From: an uncultured Tateyamaria sp.
Lineage (GTDB): Bacteria > Pseudomonadota > Alphaproteobacteria > Rhodobacterales > Rhodobacteraceae
NCBI GenBank assembly: GCA_905480645.1
Contig: CAJQRC010000017.1
Coordinates: 1 to 64,000 of the forward strand
Direction of reading: 5' to 3'
Length of the DNA stretch: 64,000 nt
Shown: positions 2,389 to 9,402 of the stretch, in pieces
Numbering within the stretch: the stretch's first letter is position 1
Layout: each line of letters starts with the position of its first letter
Program-made: the position numbers and the translations under genes
The notes under the pieces: model-generated
What the model saw: the letters and a program-made list of their open reading frames with translations, nothing else
Databases searched by the model: none
What the model was told of the DNA's origin: nothing

Positions 2389-2972
2389 GCCGTGTGATCC
2401 ATAAATTCACACGTCGCGTGCCGGAATGGAAACCTCGGGTTAAGCCCGTTGAACTTAACTCAGCAACACCTGAACAGCTGAATGCGCTTAAAGTCACGCC
2501 TTCTAATACTAAGGTTTCTAGCTATGTTTTGACACTCGCGCACGACGTGGAAAGCCTCACCGTAAGGTCTCCTCTCTTCAATGCAATAATGTATGACAAA
2601 GGCGGGATGTCACGCGCCGAACGCGAGCTTGGGGCGATAGCCGCATCAATGGTAAACCGTTGTATTTACTGCGCCGCTGTTCATGCCGATCGTCACGCGC
2701 AACTGGAAAAAAGTACAGAGGTAACGGATCAGCTTTTTGCGCAAGGGGTTAATGCTGATCTGTCAGTTCGTGATGCCGCGATATTCGCCTTTGCCTACAA
2801 GTTATCCAAAGCACCACCTGAGGCAGGACCAGAAGATATAGCTGCCTTACGCGATGCCGGGTTATCGGATGAAGAAATCTTAGACTTAATCTTGTCATCC
2901 TCACTGTTTGGCTGGGCTAACAGGCTAATGCATGTTCTTGGTGATCCCGTTCGTCCGGAGGAGGCCGTATGA
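2385..2972 (+). CDS. Alkylhydroperoxidase/CMD-domain protein with CxxC motif
   Basis: AhpD-like motif CIYCAAVHADRH; ATGA overlap with preceding CDS; resembles Avi_7169-type family. Confidence 0.75.
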   Translation: MSRVIHKFTRRVPEWKPRVKPVELNSATPEQLNALKVTPSNTKVSSYVLTLAHDVESLTVRSPLFNAIMYDKGGMSRAERELGAIAASMVNRCIYCAAVHADRHAQLEKSTEVTDQLFAQGVNADLSVRDAAIFAFAYKLSKAPPEAGPEDIAALRDAGLSDEEILDLILSSSLFGWANRLMHVLGDPVRPEEAV

Positions 2973-4072
2973 TTAAGAGCAAACGTGTTGGTTTGGCAGG
3001 TGCGGGTTCTATTGCTCTGGGTACGGCAGCGCTCTTGGTGGATCAGGGTCACGACCCGATGCTCTGGTCTCCCTCTGGATCTGGCACGGTGGGCCTCGAT
3101 GGAGAAATCACCGCTGAAGGTGCGCTTGAATTGAATTTTAATCCAAGGATTGCCAAGTCGGCAAAAGACTTGGTTGATGAAAACGATGTCCTTATTATCG
3201 CGCTGCCAGCTTATGGGCATAAAACTGTAATGGACGCACTGGCGCCGCATATCCGGATGGAACAGCAAGTCATTGTGTCATCCCATGCATCTATGGGCGC
3301 ACTTTATCTAATGCGCTTGCTGAAAGCTCGTAATGTCACAGTGCCGATCACGGCTTGGGGTACCACAGTGGTAACTGGTCGACGGCAAAATGGCCCAGTC
3401 GTTCGTGTGAATACAGTTCGTAGCCGTGTGGATCTCTGCACTATCCCCGAAACCCAGTCAGATTGCGCACTTACAATGTGTCAGAGCCTGTTTGGAGATC
3501 GCTTTCAGCCGCGTGCAGGTCTTCTTGCGGTTTCACTGTCAAATCTTAATCCACAGAACCATCTGGGCATAGCACTTGGTAACATTACAAGAATGGAACG
3601 AGGTGAAGTCTGGAGCCAGGGTCAGAATGTGACGCCCAAAATTGGGCGTCTGTTGGAGAGGCTTGATCTTGAACGTTTGACGATTGCTGACGCGTTGGGC
3701 TTGCAAGTCAAAACTATTTTTGAGCACTTCCACCTCAGCTTCCATGTGCCTGTGGCTTCGATTTCCGCGATGAATCAGCAAATGCACGAAAAGGGCAATG
3801 GTGGCACTGGGCCAGCAACCAGCGATAGTCGCTATGTGACTGAAGATGTGCCATATGGCCTGCAATTGACTGCTGTCTTGGGCCGTTTGGTCGCTCGACC
3901 TGCAATTCTGCATGAAGCTGGAATAGCCATGTTTTCAGCCATGTATGACAGGGATTTCGCTCGTGAAAATGCTTTACTCACGGCGCTCCAATTGGAGCAA
4001 TATAGTCTTGACGATCTGCAACATTCCGCCCGTACCGGACTGTTATGTTGGACAGATGACCCTAGACTGTAA
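2969..4072 (+). CDS. NAD/NADP octopine/nopaline dehydrogenase family protein
   Basis: N-terminal GAGSIALGTAA Rossmann motif and opine-dehydrogenase-like C-terminal domain (NLNPQNHLGIALGN...); ATGA overlap. Confidence 0.75.
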   Translation: MIKSKRVGLAGAGSIALGTAALLVDQGHDPMLWSPSGSGTVGLDGEITAEGALELNFNPRIAKSAKDLVDENDVLIIALPAYGHKTVMDALAPHIRMEQQVIVSSHASMGALYLMRLLKARNVTVPITAWGTTVVTGRRQNGPVVRVNTVRSRVDLCTIPETQSDCALTMCQSLFGDRFQPRAGLLAVSLSNLNPQNHLGIALGNITRMERGEVWSQGQNVTPKIGRLLERLDLERLTIADALGLQVKTIFEHFHLSFHVPVASISAMNQQMHEKGNGGTGPATSDSRYVTEDVPYGLQLTAVLGRLVARPAILHEAGIAMFSAMYDRDFARENALLTALQLEQYSLDDLQHSARTGLLCWTDDPRL

Positions 4073-4082
4073 ACTCTAGGGT
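4059..4082 (+). promoter_or_regulatory. Hairpin overlapping the dehydrogenase stop codon, upstream of SBP gene
   Basis: 8-bp perfect stem accctaga/tctagggt, 8-nt loop. Confidence 0.5.
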
Positions 4083-4123
4083 GTACGGAAAAACACGAAA
4101 CGAACCAACAAGGAGAAGCTAAA

Positions 4124-5233
4124 ATGACTAAACTAATCCTAAATCGTCGCCGTTTTATTGGCACGACCGCGATGGCTGGTGTCGCATTGGCAAGTCCCGC
4201 GTATTTGCGCCGTGCTTCGGCCCAAGGCAGTGGGGAGGTCAATATTTGGACTTATAACGACTTTGTTCCCCAAAGCTTTAAAGAGCAGTTCGAGGCTGAT
4301 ACCGGTATCAAGGTGAATATTCGACTAGTTGATGATCAGGGAAAACAGTACAACTTACTGGCTGCAGAACAGCCCAACCCAACCGTTGATATCATGACTG
4401 TAGCAGGTCACCGTTTCCTTCAATTCATCGATAATAAATTGCTGGCCCCTCTGGATACCGATCGCCTCAGTAACTGGGGCAACATCAACCCAAGCTTTTC
4501 AGAAAGTGATTGGTCGACTATCAACGGTGAAAAATGGGGTGCGCCGATCCTCTCGGGTATGGAAGTTTTATCCTATAATACTGATCTTGTTTCGCAAGAA
4601 GAAGCCATGACTTGGGATACACTGTTTTCTGATAAATATGCGGGCCAAACAGCTTACATTATTCAGGATATGATGTCGATCATTATGCTTAAAATGGGCT
4701 ATGATGGTAATATGGTCGCCTATTTGGATGATCCAGAAAAAGCTGCCGCCATTGTGAACGAGGCCAAGCAGTATCTGATCGATAAGAAACCGCTTGTTCG
4801 CAAATACTATGACAGTGGGGCAGAAGTGCAGCAGATGTTCGTCAATCAAGACATCGCGTTAGGCCATAGCTGGAATGGACCGGCTGCGGCGCTCATTAAC
4901 GATGGCTTTCCGCTTGCTATGACTATCCCTAACGAAGGCTCTTATGGTTTTGTCTATACCTACAACGTGGCTAATAACGCGCCAAACGTTGACAATGCGT
5001 ATACTTTTCTAAACGCAATTCTTGCTTCGCCTGAAATTGGTGCTGCAATGACCAAGGCTTCCGGCTTTATCTCGACCTACAAGGATGCGACAAACTATCT
5101 GACTGACCTTGAAAAGGCATCAACGTCCTTTCCAGAAGAACAACTGGCAAATCTCCAATTCTTCCGCGCAGAAGCGAACGAGATGAAATATGGACTGGTT
5201 GACCCAGCTGTTGAGGCTGTGAAAGCTGCCTGA
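4124..5233 (+). CDS. ABC transporter periplasmic substrate-binding protein (spermidine/putrescine type), Tat signal
   Basis: RRRFIGTTAMAG twin-arginine leader; PotD/PotF-like body; followed by two permeases and an ATPase. Confidence 0.85.
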   Translation: MTKLILNRRRFIGTTAMAGVALASPAYLRRASAQGSGEVNIWTYNDFVPQSFKEQFEADTGIKVNIRLVDDQGKQYNLLAAEQPNPTVDIMTVAGHRFLQFIDNKLLAPLDTDRLSNWGNINPSFSESDWSTINGEKWGAPILSGMEVLSYNTDLVSQEEAMTWDTLFSDKYAGQTAYIIQDMMSIIMLKMGYDGNMVAYLDDPEKAAAIVNEAKQYLIDKKPLVRKYYDSGAEVQQMFVNQDIALGHSWNGPAAALINDGFPLAMTIPNEGSYGFVYTYNVANNAPNVDNAYTFLNAILASPEIGAAMTKASGFISTYKDATNYLTDLEKASTSFPEEQLANLQFFRAEANEMKYGLVDPAVEAVKAA

Positions 5234-5246
5234 TCCTAACTAATTA

Positions 5247-5273
5247 GTGGCCCGCCATTAAGTGGCGGGCCAC
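5247..5273 (+). promoter_or_regulatory. Intercistronic GC-rich hairpin between SBP and permease genes
   Basis: gtggcccgcca-ttaag-tggcgggccac, 11-bp perfect stem, no clear poly-T. Confidence 0.7.
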
Positions 5274-5304
5274 ACTTTATTCTCGGCAAAAGGAAATCTG
5301 CAAG

Positions 5305-6291
5305 ATGACCTATGACGCGTCTGTCCAAAAAGACGGTGATGACAGTACTACATCGGGTGGCAGTCGTCCGTTCTGGGGCCGTATCGTTAATTGGAGACCG
5401 TATCAAGGCTTGGTCGCAATCGTCACTGTATCACCGCGCAGACAGTTCTTCATCCTTGTTGCATTTCCCGTCCTATGGCTACTGACCCAGCATCTTGGTC
5501 CAATGCTCCAAATGCTGCACGTGTCCCTGCTTGATGCCTATCCTGTAGCTCCAGGAACAGCACATACGTTTACATTCGACAATTACATGCGGTTTTTAGG
5601 AGATCGCATCTTTTGGCAGCCTTTCTTTCGTACGTTAACCTTTGCAGCAGTTTTTACTTTTTGCACACTGATCATCACGTATCCTGTTGCCTATTTTCTT
5701 GCCCGACACGTGAGCCGCAAGAATCGAATGCTTATGCTGTTGCTTTTGTTAATCCCATTTTGGGTGGGCGAAATCGTGCGCACATATGCGATTATGATCC
5801 TGTTAGGTAATACGGGGGCAGTTAATCAGGTTCTTAAATGGGTCGGCCTTATCGATCGCCCGATCCCGTTTATGTATACCAGTTTTTCAATGGGTGTAGG
5901 CATCGTCTACCTTACAGCACTTTACATGTTATTACCGCTCTATTCCGCTCTAGAAAAACTTCCAAAGAGTTACAATGAAGCTGCTGCAGATCTTGGCGCA
6001 GGTGCCTGGACCCGTTTCCGTCGAGTCACGTTGCCTTTGACCTTAGAAGGTATCTCTTCAGGGTGTACGCTAGTCTTTTTGATTTCAACTGGATTTTACG
6101 CGACACCCGTCCTTTTAGGGGGCCCATCGACCACGGTGTTCGCCGAAACGATTGCTGGTTTTTTCCACGTTGCTGGCGATGAGTGGCCAACTGGTGCCGC
6201 ATTTGCTGTAATTATGTTTGCAGGCGCACTAGCAATTACTGGCGTGTTCCAACGCCTGATGAAAGCTCTACGCAAAGGAGATACGGCATGA
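5305..6291 (+). CDS. ABC transporter permease (PotB-like)
   Basis: Multiple TM segments and EAA-loop region (YNEAAADLGAGAWTRFRRVTLPLT). Confidence 0.85.
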   Translation: MTYDASVQKDGDDSTTSGGSRPFWGRIVNWRPYQGLVAIVTVSPRRQFFILVAFPVLWLLTQHLGPMLQMLHVSLLDAYPVAPGTAHTFTFDNYMRFLGDRIFWQPFFRTLTFAAVFTFCTLIITYPVAYFLARHVSRKNRMLMLLLLLIPFWVGEIVRTYAIMILLGNTGAVNQVLKWVGLIDRPIPFMYTSFSMGVGIVYLTALYMLLPLYSALEKLPKSYNEAAADLGAGAWTRFRRVTLPLTLEGISSGCTLVFLISTGFYATPVLLGGPSTTVFAETIAGFFHVAGDEWPTGAAFAVIMFAGALAITGVFQRLMKALRKGDTA

Positions 6292-7079
6292 ACCGTGGTA
6301 ACCGAGTTGCGCTAGCCTGTTGCTATTGGGCTCTTGTTGTATACGTCTTTGTACCGTTGATTTTAATGATCGTCATGGGATTCAAGGATAGTAAGTTCAT
6401 CGGCTTTCCAATTCAGTCCTGGACACTTGATTGGTACGCAGGCGTTTTTTCTGACGCAGAGGTTTTATACACGTTTGGATATTCCGTTCTAATCGCAGTG
6501 CTGTCGACGCTGATTTCAGTGATTGTTGGGACTTGGATCGCGGTGCTCTTAGAAGGTCGTAAATTCTGGGGACGCGCCGTTATGTTTGGTTTAATGGTAC
6601 TACCAGCACTGGTGCCTGGCATCATTTCCGCTATCGCTTTTCGTATTTATGCGCGGTGGCTGGGTATTGAACCCGGAATAGGGGCGATTGTCTGGGCGCA
6701 CGCGGTTCATAATGTGCCTTTTGTATCGCTCGTCATAATGGCCCGCCTTTCAACTTTGCCCAAAAGCCAGATTGAAGCGGCGCGCGACCTCGGGGCAGAT
6801 GCTTTAATTGCTTTTATGCGCGTCACGCTACCCTACCTTGTACCAGCTATCCTCGGTGCTAGCGTGTTTTGCCTGCTACTCAGTTTCGACGATTTTGTCC
6901 GGTCCTTCTTCCTTGGTGGGTATGAGCCCACCCTCCCGGTTTTGATTTTTGCAATGCTAAGGTCGGGCATGTCCCCTGAGATTAATGCGATCGCAACTGC
7001 CGCTCTCGTGTTGACTGCTGCAATCGGTATCTGGGCCGAACGATTCACTCGCCAAAATAGTAAGGAAAGCCAAGTATGA
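6288..7079 (+). CDS. ABC transporter permease (PotC-like)
   Basis: ATGA overlap start at 6288 (MNRGNRVALACCYW...), EAA loop IEAARDLGADALIAFMRVTLPYL. The longer track ORF from 6183 overlaps the preceding gene. Confidence 0.85.
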   Translation: MNRGNRVALACCYWALVVYVFVPLILMIVMGFKDSKFIGFPIQSWTLDWYAGVFSDAEVLYTFGYSVLIAVLSTLISVIVGTWIAVLLEGRKFWGRAVMFGLMVLPALVPGIISAIAFRIYARWLGIEPGIGAIVWAHAVHNVPFVSLVIMARLSTLPKSQIEAARDLGADALIAFMRVTLPYLVPAILGASVFCLLLSFDDFVRSFFLGGYEPTLPVLIFAMLRSGMSPEINAIATAALVLTAAIGIWAERFTRQNSKESQV

Positions 7080-8155
7080 CGTCTCCTCTTGTCCATATTG
7101 ATGGAATTTCCAAGCGCTTTGGCGACGCAATAGCGTTGGAGCAACTGTCACTGGATATTGCAGAAGGCGAATTCGTGACGTTCTTAGGTCCTTCAGGCTG
7201 CGGAAAATCTACAACCTTGCGAATACTTGGCGGTTTTGAAAAGCCGGACACGGGATCCATTATTCTCGATGGTGAGGACATAACCAAACACCCGCCAGAA
7301 AAGCGTCATGTGAACATGGTTTTCCAGGACTATGCGCTGTTTCCGCATATGACTGTACTGCAAAACATCGCATTTGCGCTGGAACTTAAAGGGATGCGCA
7401 AAGCTGAAATTAAAAAGCGATTAGACGAAATCATGTCTTTCCTAGAGCTTGATGGCTATGGTCATCGCTATCCTGGACAGTTGTCAGGCGGTCAGCGACA
7501 GAGAGTTGCGCTCGCCCGTGCTTTGGCACCCGATCCTGCTCTTTTGCTACTGGACGAACCGCTTGGAGCCTTGGATGCCAAGCTGCGCGGCCAAGTCCAG
7601 CGCGAACTGAAGTCTATTCAACGTCAGACAAACAAAACCTTTTTTTTCGTGACGCACGATCAGGAGGAAGCACTAACAATGTCTGATCGGATCGTGGTGA
7701 TGAACCATGGTCGTGTTGAACAAGATGGCACCCCAGAAGAACTCTATTTCCAACCCGCCAGTCGATTTGTTGCTGAATTTATTGGAGAGACCAATCTGCT
7801 TTCGGGTAAAATGCGTGGTGTAGAGGGTAGTACAGTTGTGATGGATTGGTTTGGCCTTACACTCCGTGGACACGCGCCCTCGGGCATTCCTGTTGAAGGT
7901 GCTGATATCACGGCATCTATCCGACTGGAAAAGCTGGAACTACACGGCTCCCGACCTGATCTGTCGAACGCCGTCCAAGGCCGGATCACCAATAAAATCT
8001 TTCTTGGTAGTCGCATGGCAGTTGATATAATTATTGAACAAAAGGACAGTGCAAAACTAAGAGCTTTTGTGGATGCGGACACCGGACAATCAATTGGTGA
8101 TAACCTAATTTGGATTGCGTGGGACAGTAATTGCATGACTGTTTTGCGTGACTAA
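7076..8155 (+). CDS. ABC transporter ATP-binding protein (PotA-like)
   Basis: Walker A GPSGCGKST, signature LSGGQRQRVALARAL, Walker B LLLLDEP, C-terminal TOBE-like region. Confidence 0.93.
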   Translation: MTSPLVHIDGISKRFGDAIALEQLSLDIAEGEFVTFLGPSGCGKSTTLRILGGFEKPDTGSIILDGEDITKHPPEKRHVNMVFQDYALFPHMTVLQNIAFALELKGMRKAEIKKRLDEIMSFLELDGYGHRYPGQLSGGQRQRVALARALAPDPALLLLDEPLGALDAKLRGQVQRELKSIQRQTNKTFFFVTHDQEEALTMSDRIVVMNHGRVEQDGTPEELYFQPASRFVAEFIGETNLLSGKMRGVEGSTVVMDWFGLTLRGHAPSGIPVEGADITASIRLEKLELHGSRPDLSNAVQGRITNKIFLGSRMAVDIIIEQKDSAKLRAFVDADTGQSIGDNLIWIAWDSNCMTVLRD

Positions 8156-8343
8156 TGGTATTAAAATTTAGTCGCAATCATACTCCTAATTGTTCGATCG
8201 GCATTTAATAAGCTTTTAAATTAAACCAAAGCACTCGGTCACTTGCTCGATTACAATTAATTCATTAACCTCGTGAACTTGTCCGCTGGCACTAGGACGG
8301 CTAGAAAAAGTCCATTTGATAAAAAAATAATGATCCCAACAGT

Positions 8344-8385
8344 GTGGCTAGGCTCACTCCCCTCCCAAACAGAGAGCCTAGCCAC
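8344..8385 (+). ncRNA. Putative structured RNA hairpin with C-rich loop
   Basis: 12-bp perfect stem gtggctaggctc/gagcctagccac with 18-nt loop actcccctcccaaacaga in a ~780-bp intergenic region. Confidence 0.4.
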
Positions 8386-8570
8386 CTAATCTCAAGCGCA
8401 TGCTGGCATGTGCGAGACATTCTTTGTTTATAAAGTGATAAGTTATTAATCAGTAACCTGGCTTATTGCCGCATATTTAATACATGTATTGCAGTTACTT
8501 ATGCATATTTTGCATGGCGGAAATGCAATATTGGTGATTGCTGCATCGCAGAATTTCAGGCACGTTATAC

Positions 8571-8671
8571 ACAACGGATGGTTCCTCCCTGAACATTTGT
8601 TTGTTTTGAAAATTCTTCCTCCCAGAAATTTTCAATGTTATGGCGGTACCTTCGGGTATCGCCTTTTTTTT
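8571..8671 (+). ncRNA. Putative trans-acting sRNA with anti-SD-like loops and intrinsic terminator (5' end uncertain)
   Basis: Hairpin gttc-ctccct-gaac (8581-8594), hairpin ttgaaaatt-cttcctcccaga-aattttcaa (8606-8635), terminator ggcggtacc-ttcg-ggtatcgcc-T8 (8642-8671). Confidence 0.55.
8642..8671 (+). terminator. Rho-independent terminator with UUCG tetraloop
   Basis: 9-bp stem (one G-U) GGCGGTACC/GGTATCGCC, UUCG loop, 8 T. Confidence 0.85.
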
Positions 8672-8937
8672 GCTTACAAAGCTCTCAATAAAAAGTTTCT
8701 GAGTATGGTATTTTTATTTCATAACAGTATTTTTTAATGTCCAAACTCAAAATTAATTATTCTTTGTATAAGGTAATGGGGGACAACTTAAAATTTAGGC
8801 TTTGGATTTCTCAAAGATTTCATCTTGAGCGTCAATTAAGTAGATTCATAATTCTATTTGAATAATGTTTTTATGGCTCCACAAGTTTTGACAAATCTTA
8901 AATACTTCAGTTGGTGATTTGTGTACGGAAACAAGTG

Positions 8938-9402
8938 TTATCGGCGCCCATTTTTCAGGGTATTAGCTATTGCCAAACGTTCTTGTGCACTCATGCCAGC
9001 CAATTGTTCCACCAAGACCTGCCTAGTAATTGTTTGCCGCTTCTCTGCTTGCGTTCCAGCTTGTTCCAAAAGGTCTAAAAGAGCGAGGGGTTCAAACGGT
9101 GTAGTGCCAATAAGATCAGCCAGTTTTCCATTAAATGCGCCAGGCGAGCTAAGGCTGTTTTCTGCATGTATTTTTTTAATCATTCGGCCCAATGCGCGGC
9201 GGTCTTTGCGGTCCATTGCGCGAATGATCGGTGCGAAACCTAAGTTAGGGCCACGAGGCCTCGAACCGTGATGATATCCAGCACGCTCAAGCTTTACATC
9301 TTTGTGATGTCCAGAAGCAAAAAACCCACCTATCGCCCCCAAAACCAAGAGATTTGCTGCCAATGAGATCACCAGCGATATTTTTAACATTTTATGTGAC
9401 AT
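8938..9402 (-). CDS. Periplasmic heavy-metal-sensor-like (CpxP/ZraP-like) protein
   Basis: N-terminal TM, His-rich HHKDVKLERAGYHHG, helical LTxxQ-like regions; downstream of sigma factor. Confidence 0.6.
   Translation of the reverse strand: MSHKMLKISLVISLAANLLVLGAIGGFFASGHHKDVKLERAGYHHGSRPRGPNLGFAPIIRAMDRKDRRALGRMIKKIHAENSLSSPGAFNGKLADLIGTTPFEPLALLDLLEQAGTQAEKRQTITRQVLVEQLAGMSAQERLAIANTLKNGRR

Follow-up and report, generated by a model that had tools for sequence, protein, structure and literature searches.

Does the interval between a potA-like gene that ends at 8155 on the + strand and a convergent gene whose low end lies at 8938 hold a gene of its own, and of what kind would that gene be? 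In the window, by which is meant the whole 64,000-nucleotide stretch of an uncultured Tateyamaria sp. genome that was analysed, an earlier note had placed here two hairpins and a terminator and read them as a small RNA (sRNA) with anti-Shine-Dalgarno (anti-SD) loops. On re-check the coordinates of the flanking genes, both hairpins and the terminator were all borne out, and the product of the stretch is very probably a small regulatory RNA, predicted from its sequence to bind the ribosome-binding sites of other mRNAs. A second copy in the same genome, homologues with compensatory changes and a promoter common to known sRNA loci together lift the feature beyond chance. With good though not full confidence we favor a stand-alone, trans-acting anti-SD sRNA that would be activated by an LsrB-type regulator and possibly repressed by PhaR. 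The promoter, the second copy and an upstream element termed hairpin A had been missed by the earlier note, and the novelty lies in the promoter link. The elements of the locus are listed here with the evidence for each.

8342–8853, +: duplicated non-coding unit (97% identical to G000:C48:48018-48529)
8344–8385, probably −: hairpin A, upstream conserved element (conservation; pairing better on the − strand)
8501–8520, +: box 1, ATGCATATTTTGCATGGCGG, holding an LsrB/VtlR-type TGCA-N6-GCAT at 8502–8515 (NfeR1 promoter motif; own-genome matches; ar14 loci)
8538–8556, +: box 2, ATTGCTGCATCGCAGAATT, holding a PhaR-type operator CTGCNNNGCAG at 8541–8551 (R. sphaeroides PhaR site; relatives; sites upstream of phaR and the phasin gene)
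8573–8671, +: sRNA, predicted mature RNA of ~97–100 nt (fold; own-genome copy; homologues; ar14 alignment)
8573–8601, +: hairpin 1, loop CUCCCU, anti-SD (fold; lineage-by-lineage hairpins)
8606–8635, +: hairpin 2, loop CUUCCUCCCAGA, anti-SD (fold; loop conservation; pairing statistics)
8642–8671, +: intrinsic terminator, UUCG loop and T8 (terminator scan; two-sided changes)

Structure of the locus

The interval from 8560 to 8671 folds at −29.5 kcal/mol (z = −3.2), and 1 of 200 shuffles was equally good. Hairpin 1 (gttc-CTCCCT-gaac at 8581–8594 in the DNA) lies where it had been described but is longer, its stem extending on folding to 8573–8601 with 11 pairs and one bulge; by itself this stem is not significant in the window copy (z = −0.74) and reaches z values of −2.0 to −5.2 in relatives. 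Hairpin 2 reads ttgaaaatt-CTTCCTCCCAGA-aattttcaa at 8606–8635 and is followed by the + strand intrinsic terminator, GGCGGTACC-TTCG-GGTATCGCC-T8 at 8642–8671, which a scan confirmed as one of two terminator-like sites within 8150–8940, where 0.5 would be expected. Scans of the window detected no tRNA and, at the gathering score, no Rfam match, and a simple promoter scan did not find a strong sigma-70 promoter.

Conservation among relatives

A covariance model built from five sequences gave high scores in the own genome (twice), in G344 and in G357, with G244 at 44.7 bits, and in a family-wide search its strong matches were confined to a few genera. At least three further genera of Rhodobacteraceae have homologues with compensatory changes: the locus occurs in all four genomes of the genus of G357, where G416 and G417 carry two types each, and a pattern scan of named genomes located it in Rhodobacteraceae bacterium SB2 (LGRT01000037.1) and on the MAG contig JADHOV010000007.1. 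A DNA search within the window's own genus returned no match beyond the own genome.

The earlier reading asked that the loops be kept in relatives, and they are, with stems that covary. Two hairpins with CUCCC unpaired, followed by a terminator, were folded in 8 of 8 distinct homologues, and the UCCUCCC of the hairpin 2 loop is identical in all 10 loci compared. Over the eight distinct sequences 94% of the cells in hairpin 2 and the terminator are paired, against 39–51% with slid partners, and 10 cells are double-changed against 3.2 in shuffles; five pairs have changed on both sides, and in the terminator two-sided changes affect 4 of 9 pairs. Column covariation in a MAFFT alignment gave no signal for hairpin 1, because its stems are shifted in register there, and its conservation was instead judged from each lineage's own folded stem: the stem sequence differs from lineage to lineage, yet the hairpin always forms with CUCCC unpaired.

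Matches sharing the terminator alone (L013), or TTCCTCCCTGTCAGACTGGCC and a terminator alone (L012, L081, L083, L085 and others), were taken as a different sRNA family and set aside. A separate family, with a conserved CTTCCTCCCTGTCAGACTGGCC and a terminator, recurs in different genera (L012, L081, L083, L085, L088, L090, L095, L096, L098); the SorX model scores 33.9 bits on L012 (cut-off 46.6).

Promoter and candidate regulators

Upstream of the sRNA the two boxes are laid out as TTATGCATATTTTGCATGGCGG-N17-ATTGCTGCATCGCAGAATT, and box 1 contains TGCA-TATTTT-GCAT at 8502–8515. The promoter of S. meliloti NfeR1 (ar14) is activated by LsrB via TGCA-N6-GCAT at −72 to −57 (PMC10746234), and when that spacing is applied to 8502–8515 the predicted start falls near 8573, where hairpin 1 begins; given such a start, the box would sit at the ar14 position. 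In an ar14 search of 249 family genomes 218 matched at E ≤ 1 and 30 stood above the cut-off, and the two-box promoter precedes 28 of the 30 best ar14/CcsR loci of the family, a pattern expected by our own arithmetic ~6 times in 10,000 per 3-kb locus. Most of these loci apparently continue with a DUF1127 gene and then a CcsR/ar14 array (the frame was read in L011, L015, L018 and L044), and in two above the ar14 cut-off (L053 and L065) the RNA directly follows the promoter without a DUF1127 gene, as it does in the window. The best studied alphaproteobacterial anti-SD groups, rhizobial NfeR1 and Rhodobacter CcsR, are in this way joined by one LsrB/VtlR-type promoter element.

In the own genome the box-1 motif (0–1 mismatch) stands before two DUF1127 genes and before each sRNA copy, and three other inspected matches lie inside coding sequence. 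This resembles the VtlR regulon of Brucella, which comprises one sRNA, AbcR2, and three DUF1127 genes (PMC12595884). The two DUF1127 genes are at L108 (C59:1520) and L111 (C1:116575); that on C59 has a full canonical CcsR promoter and no CCTCC/CcsR array 3' of it. Over 290 aa, a LysR protein encoded at C21 shares 41% identity with LsrB of Agrobacterium (PDB 9HH1), and the other own LysR proteins tested reached 26–34%, mostly over partial lengths. These observations suggest that across Rhodobacteraceae sRNAs and DUF1127 genes are under the control of a regulator of the LsrB type, which has been called unique to Rhizobiales (PMC11975290). In two relatives (L016 and L024, in G314 and G357) an LsrB-type LysR gene is followed by the box-1 motif and a SorX/SorY-like sRNA, a parallel to lsrB-abcR in Rhizobiales. 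The own-genome LysR gene (L125) has no SorX/SorY-like sRNA 3' of it, so that conservation of its regulon is assumed, and since the R. sphaeroides CcsR promoter is reported to be RpoHI/RpoHII-dependent (PMC10253847), the main control may be something other than LsrB. We rate LsrB-type control of the sRNA as likely.

Box 2, which probably overlaps the −35 region, offers a second candidate. Its PhaR-type operator reads CTGCATCGCAG in the window (8541–8551); the R. sphaeroides PhaR site is CTGCNNNGCAG, and in S. meliloti PhaR represses an sRNA, MmgR (PMC12542648). The exact CTGCNNNGCAG at 8541–8551 is a candidate for a PhaR operator like that of MmgR. In the own genome a phaR gene (TIGR01848, 145 bits) neighbors a phasin gene, and each has CTGCNNNGCAG upstream. 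The corresponding position of the promoter holds CTGCAATGCAG in G244 and in the type II copies of G416 and G417, which with the window places the operator in three genera; the type I copies (G357, G415, SB2) and G344 do not have a PhaR-type site.

One alternative keeps LsrB-type control and takes CTGCNNNGCAG for the second box of a core promoter, perhaps an RpoH-dependent one, instead of an operator. In its favor are the second box of canonical CcsR promoters, which is different and reads TTGTGCANNTGCAGCAT, the operator-free type I copies and G344, and the reported RpoHI/HII dependence of R. sphaeroides CcsR (PMC10253847); against it stand the exact operator at this position in three genera, the scarcity of CTGCNNNGCAG (61 occurrences in 3.07 Mb, including the ones before phaR and before the phasin gene) and the precedent of MmgR as a PhaR-repressed sRNA (PMC12542648). 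We consider the core-promoter box an evenly poised proposition and PhaR control of the sRNA a tentative one, somewhat below it. The promoter looks wired to a stress regulator of the LsrB type and possibly to the carbon-storage regulator PhaR. Should the PhaR site be functional, the broad control of nutrient uptake in these bacteria would receive direct input from carbon storage.

Two further observations concern PhaR and phasins. In G280 (L014) a pyruvate carboxylase-like gene has CTGCATCGCAG upstream of it, which fits PhaR control of pyruvate metabolism. In many Rhodobacteraceae a hairpin, its loop of the CUCCUCCC type, and a terminator close the phasin (PhaP) gene (L077, L078, L079, L080, L094, L140, L147), with a weak case in the own genome (L102); these hairpins are possibly a 3'-UTR-derived anti-SD sRNA under phasin control.

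Relationship to known anti-SD RNAs

The feature is very probably a divergent, duplicated relative of the known alphaproteobacterial anti-SD RNAs. A permissive Rfam scan of 8156–8937 (782 bases) aligned ar14 (RF02344) to 8564–8670, from the first to the last model position, at 25.7 bits (E 0.011), below the cut-off of 58.8; relatives score 31.0 bits (G357) and 26.7 bits (G244). An ar14 search of the whole own genome found no match, the copy probably being too divergent for the first pass of that search. In 8156–8937 CcsR1 (RF02791, cut-off 65.3 bits) had no match at E ≤ 10, and on the relative L011 the CcsR model scored 60.3 bits. The AbcR and ar15 models matched neither at the gathering score nor at E ≤ 10, and MmgR (suhB, RF00519) reached 24.7 bits against a cut-off of 41, aligning chiefly the terminator half.

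The likeness to ar14/NfeR1 lies in a stand-alone gene, in the order of its parts (two anti-SD hairpins and then an intrinsic terminator) and in an LsrB-type TGCA-N6-GCAT box at the matching distance. The differences are that two anti-SD motifs are present here and three there, with the core CCUCCC in place of CCUCCUCCC, and that the promoter contains a PhaR-type operator here and an NtrC site, lying upstream, in NfeR1. The third anti-SD motif of ar14 is in the terminator loop, for which the ar14 model and L065 have ACCUCCUCCC and the window has UUCG. With the CcsR1-4 'cuckoo' RNAs and DUF1127 of the Rhodobacter CIN1 locus the window shares the family Rhodobacteraceae, CCUCC-loop hairpins and the two-box promoter, of which 8501–8556 is a divergent version; it differs from them in having no DUF1127 reading frame between promoter and RNA, no array and no CcsR1 Rfam match, the CcsR RNAs being transcribed together with a DUF1127 gene upstream and cut out of its 3' UTR. 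AbcR1/AbcR2 of S. meliloti, Agrobacterium and Brucella are likewise an LsrB/VtlR-activated anti-SD class, silencing transporter mRNAs, with activation predicted here; AbcR adjoins lsrB and the window sRNA does not, nor does it match AbcR in Rfam. MmgR of S. meliloti, a PhaR-repressed sRNA bearing CCUCCC, is the parallel for polyhydroxybutyrate (PHB)-linked control, with putative repression here, but lacks the two-hairpin anti-SD architecture and, as its 24.7 bits against 41 indicate, is not matched. SorX/SorY (RF02784, RF02651) are Rhodobacter anti-SD-like sRNAs that in relatives lie 3' of the LsrB-type LysR gene, but their sequence and architecture are other and they have no match in the window.

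The earlier assignment to the ar14/NfeR1-CcsR class therefore holds in its broad sense, an anti-SD sRNA with end-to-end ar14 alignment, conserved loops, covarying stems and the promoter of ar14/CcsR loci, and not in the strict sense of membership, given 25.7 against 58.8 bits, unmatched CcsR1 and ar15 models and a terminator loop without an anti-SD motif. It might still be that the RNA is a full ar14 (NfeR1) member by descent that has merely become AT-enriched, a proposal that falls a little short of an even chance: part order and promoter are shared, the alignment runs end to end and G357 and G244 score slightly higher (31.0 and 26.7 bits), but none of this attains 58.8 bits, the terminator loop has no anti-SD motif, and short stem-loops can converge. 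Because its score is below the cut-off and UUCG replaces the third anti-SD site, the sRNA is a divergent variant whose membership of ar14 or CcsR is not certified. We take it to be a real, divergent, duplicated anti-SD sRNA that by its anatomy should work like NfeR1 and CcsR, yet fails the ar14 and CcsR scores.

Proposed mode of action

Under the favored reading, 8573–8671 (+) would give a stand-alone, trans-acting sRNA of ~100 nt, transcribed from near 8573, activated by an LsrB/VtlR-type LysR protein at 8502–8515 and ended by the intrinsic terminator. PhaR bound at 8541–8551 may repress it and so link it to polyhydroxybutyrate status. NfeR1 and AbcR block translation through anti-SD motifs (PMC8844928), and by analogy the CCUCCC exposed in the two hairpin loops should pair with the Shine-Dalgarno sequences of target mRNAs, presumably with use of Hfq, and would block their translation in the same manner. 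The target prediction that had been proposed as a check did not bear out a target in the window: among its 55 genes the best match, a TctC-type binding protein (start 20679, −; −24.6 kcal/mol), was not significant, as 12 of 150 flank-shuffled controls were equally good, and it is not claimed as a target. Repression of transporter mRNAs, which the earlier note had predicted, is still a guess.

Hairpin A

Some 190 nt upstream of the sRNA lies hairpin A, which is conserved in G357, G415, G416, G417, SB2 and G244 (instances, the second copy included, are at L005:8021-8062, L133:1273-1314 and, upstream of the RNA, in L075) and has a hyperconserved core, CTCCTCCCAAACA in relatives and CCCCTCCCAAACA in the window. 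On the + strand it resembles another anti-SD hairpin, its apical part reading CCUCCC; on the − strand the same part is the SD-like UUUGGGAGG. Its stem has undergone about five independent changes, which leave 98% of cells paired on the − strand when G-U is counted and produce A-C mismatches on the + strand, so that hairpin A probably belongs to the opposite strand. A role as terminator was rejected, as neither strand has a consistent T run. Speculatively, hairpin A may be part of a divergent RNA, possibly a sponge. In the fullest form of this idea the locus would be a divergent sRNA/sponge pair, in which UUUGGGAGG of the − strand complements the sRNA loops and titrates an sRNA that combines redox signals through LsrB with PHB signals through PhaR; we regard that arrangement as very unlikely.

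Second copy and the remaining alternatives

The favored stand-alone sRNA also finds support in its duplication. The C48 copy is 97% identical over 512 bp and 100% identical from window position 8571 to 8820; it holds no credible CDS, its surroundings are unrelated to those of the window copy, and potA was not part of the duplicated 512 bp. A 48-aa reading frame with a hydrophobic start and a basic tail (MFELILF...RRNRNF...KKKN) ends just 5' of the C48 unit (L005 ~7860-8005, codons read), and a similar frame lies 5' of hairpin A in G416 and G417 (L133/L134); it has no Pfam match. Since the frame precedes these units and is missing at the window copy, the C48 copy is probably the older and the window copy derived.

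It might be supposed that the region is a mere terminator or 3' end of the potA-like operon, reached by read-through, with no discrete sRNA. That operon shares the strand, its end lies 490 nt upstream, and the simple scan gave no strong sigma-70 promoter; the 512-bp unit, however, is duplicated without potA and adjoins unrelated genes in other genera, and it has its own conserved promoter and conserved anti-SD loops, which makes read-through highly improbable. That the product is a small protein, from this or another ORF, is scarcely credible and a coding reading was rejected, for the sole ORF of at least 80 aa across the region (82 aa, TTG start, 8489–8737), although present in both copies, traverses the terminator, and homologues carry indels of lengths not divisible by three, which break its frame while RNA pairs are kept; the earlier statement that no credible CDS precedes the terminator stands.

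The location next to an ABC-transport operon, to which the earlier note had given functional meaning, is correct as an adjacency; because the window copy looks derived and lacks the preceding small reading frame, the pot-type operon is probably a chance neighbor. That operon (window 2969–8155) starts with an octopine/nopaline dehydrogenase-type gene (PF02317), and with such a gene at its head the pot-like transporter may serve opine-like or amino-acid conjugates instead of polyamines.
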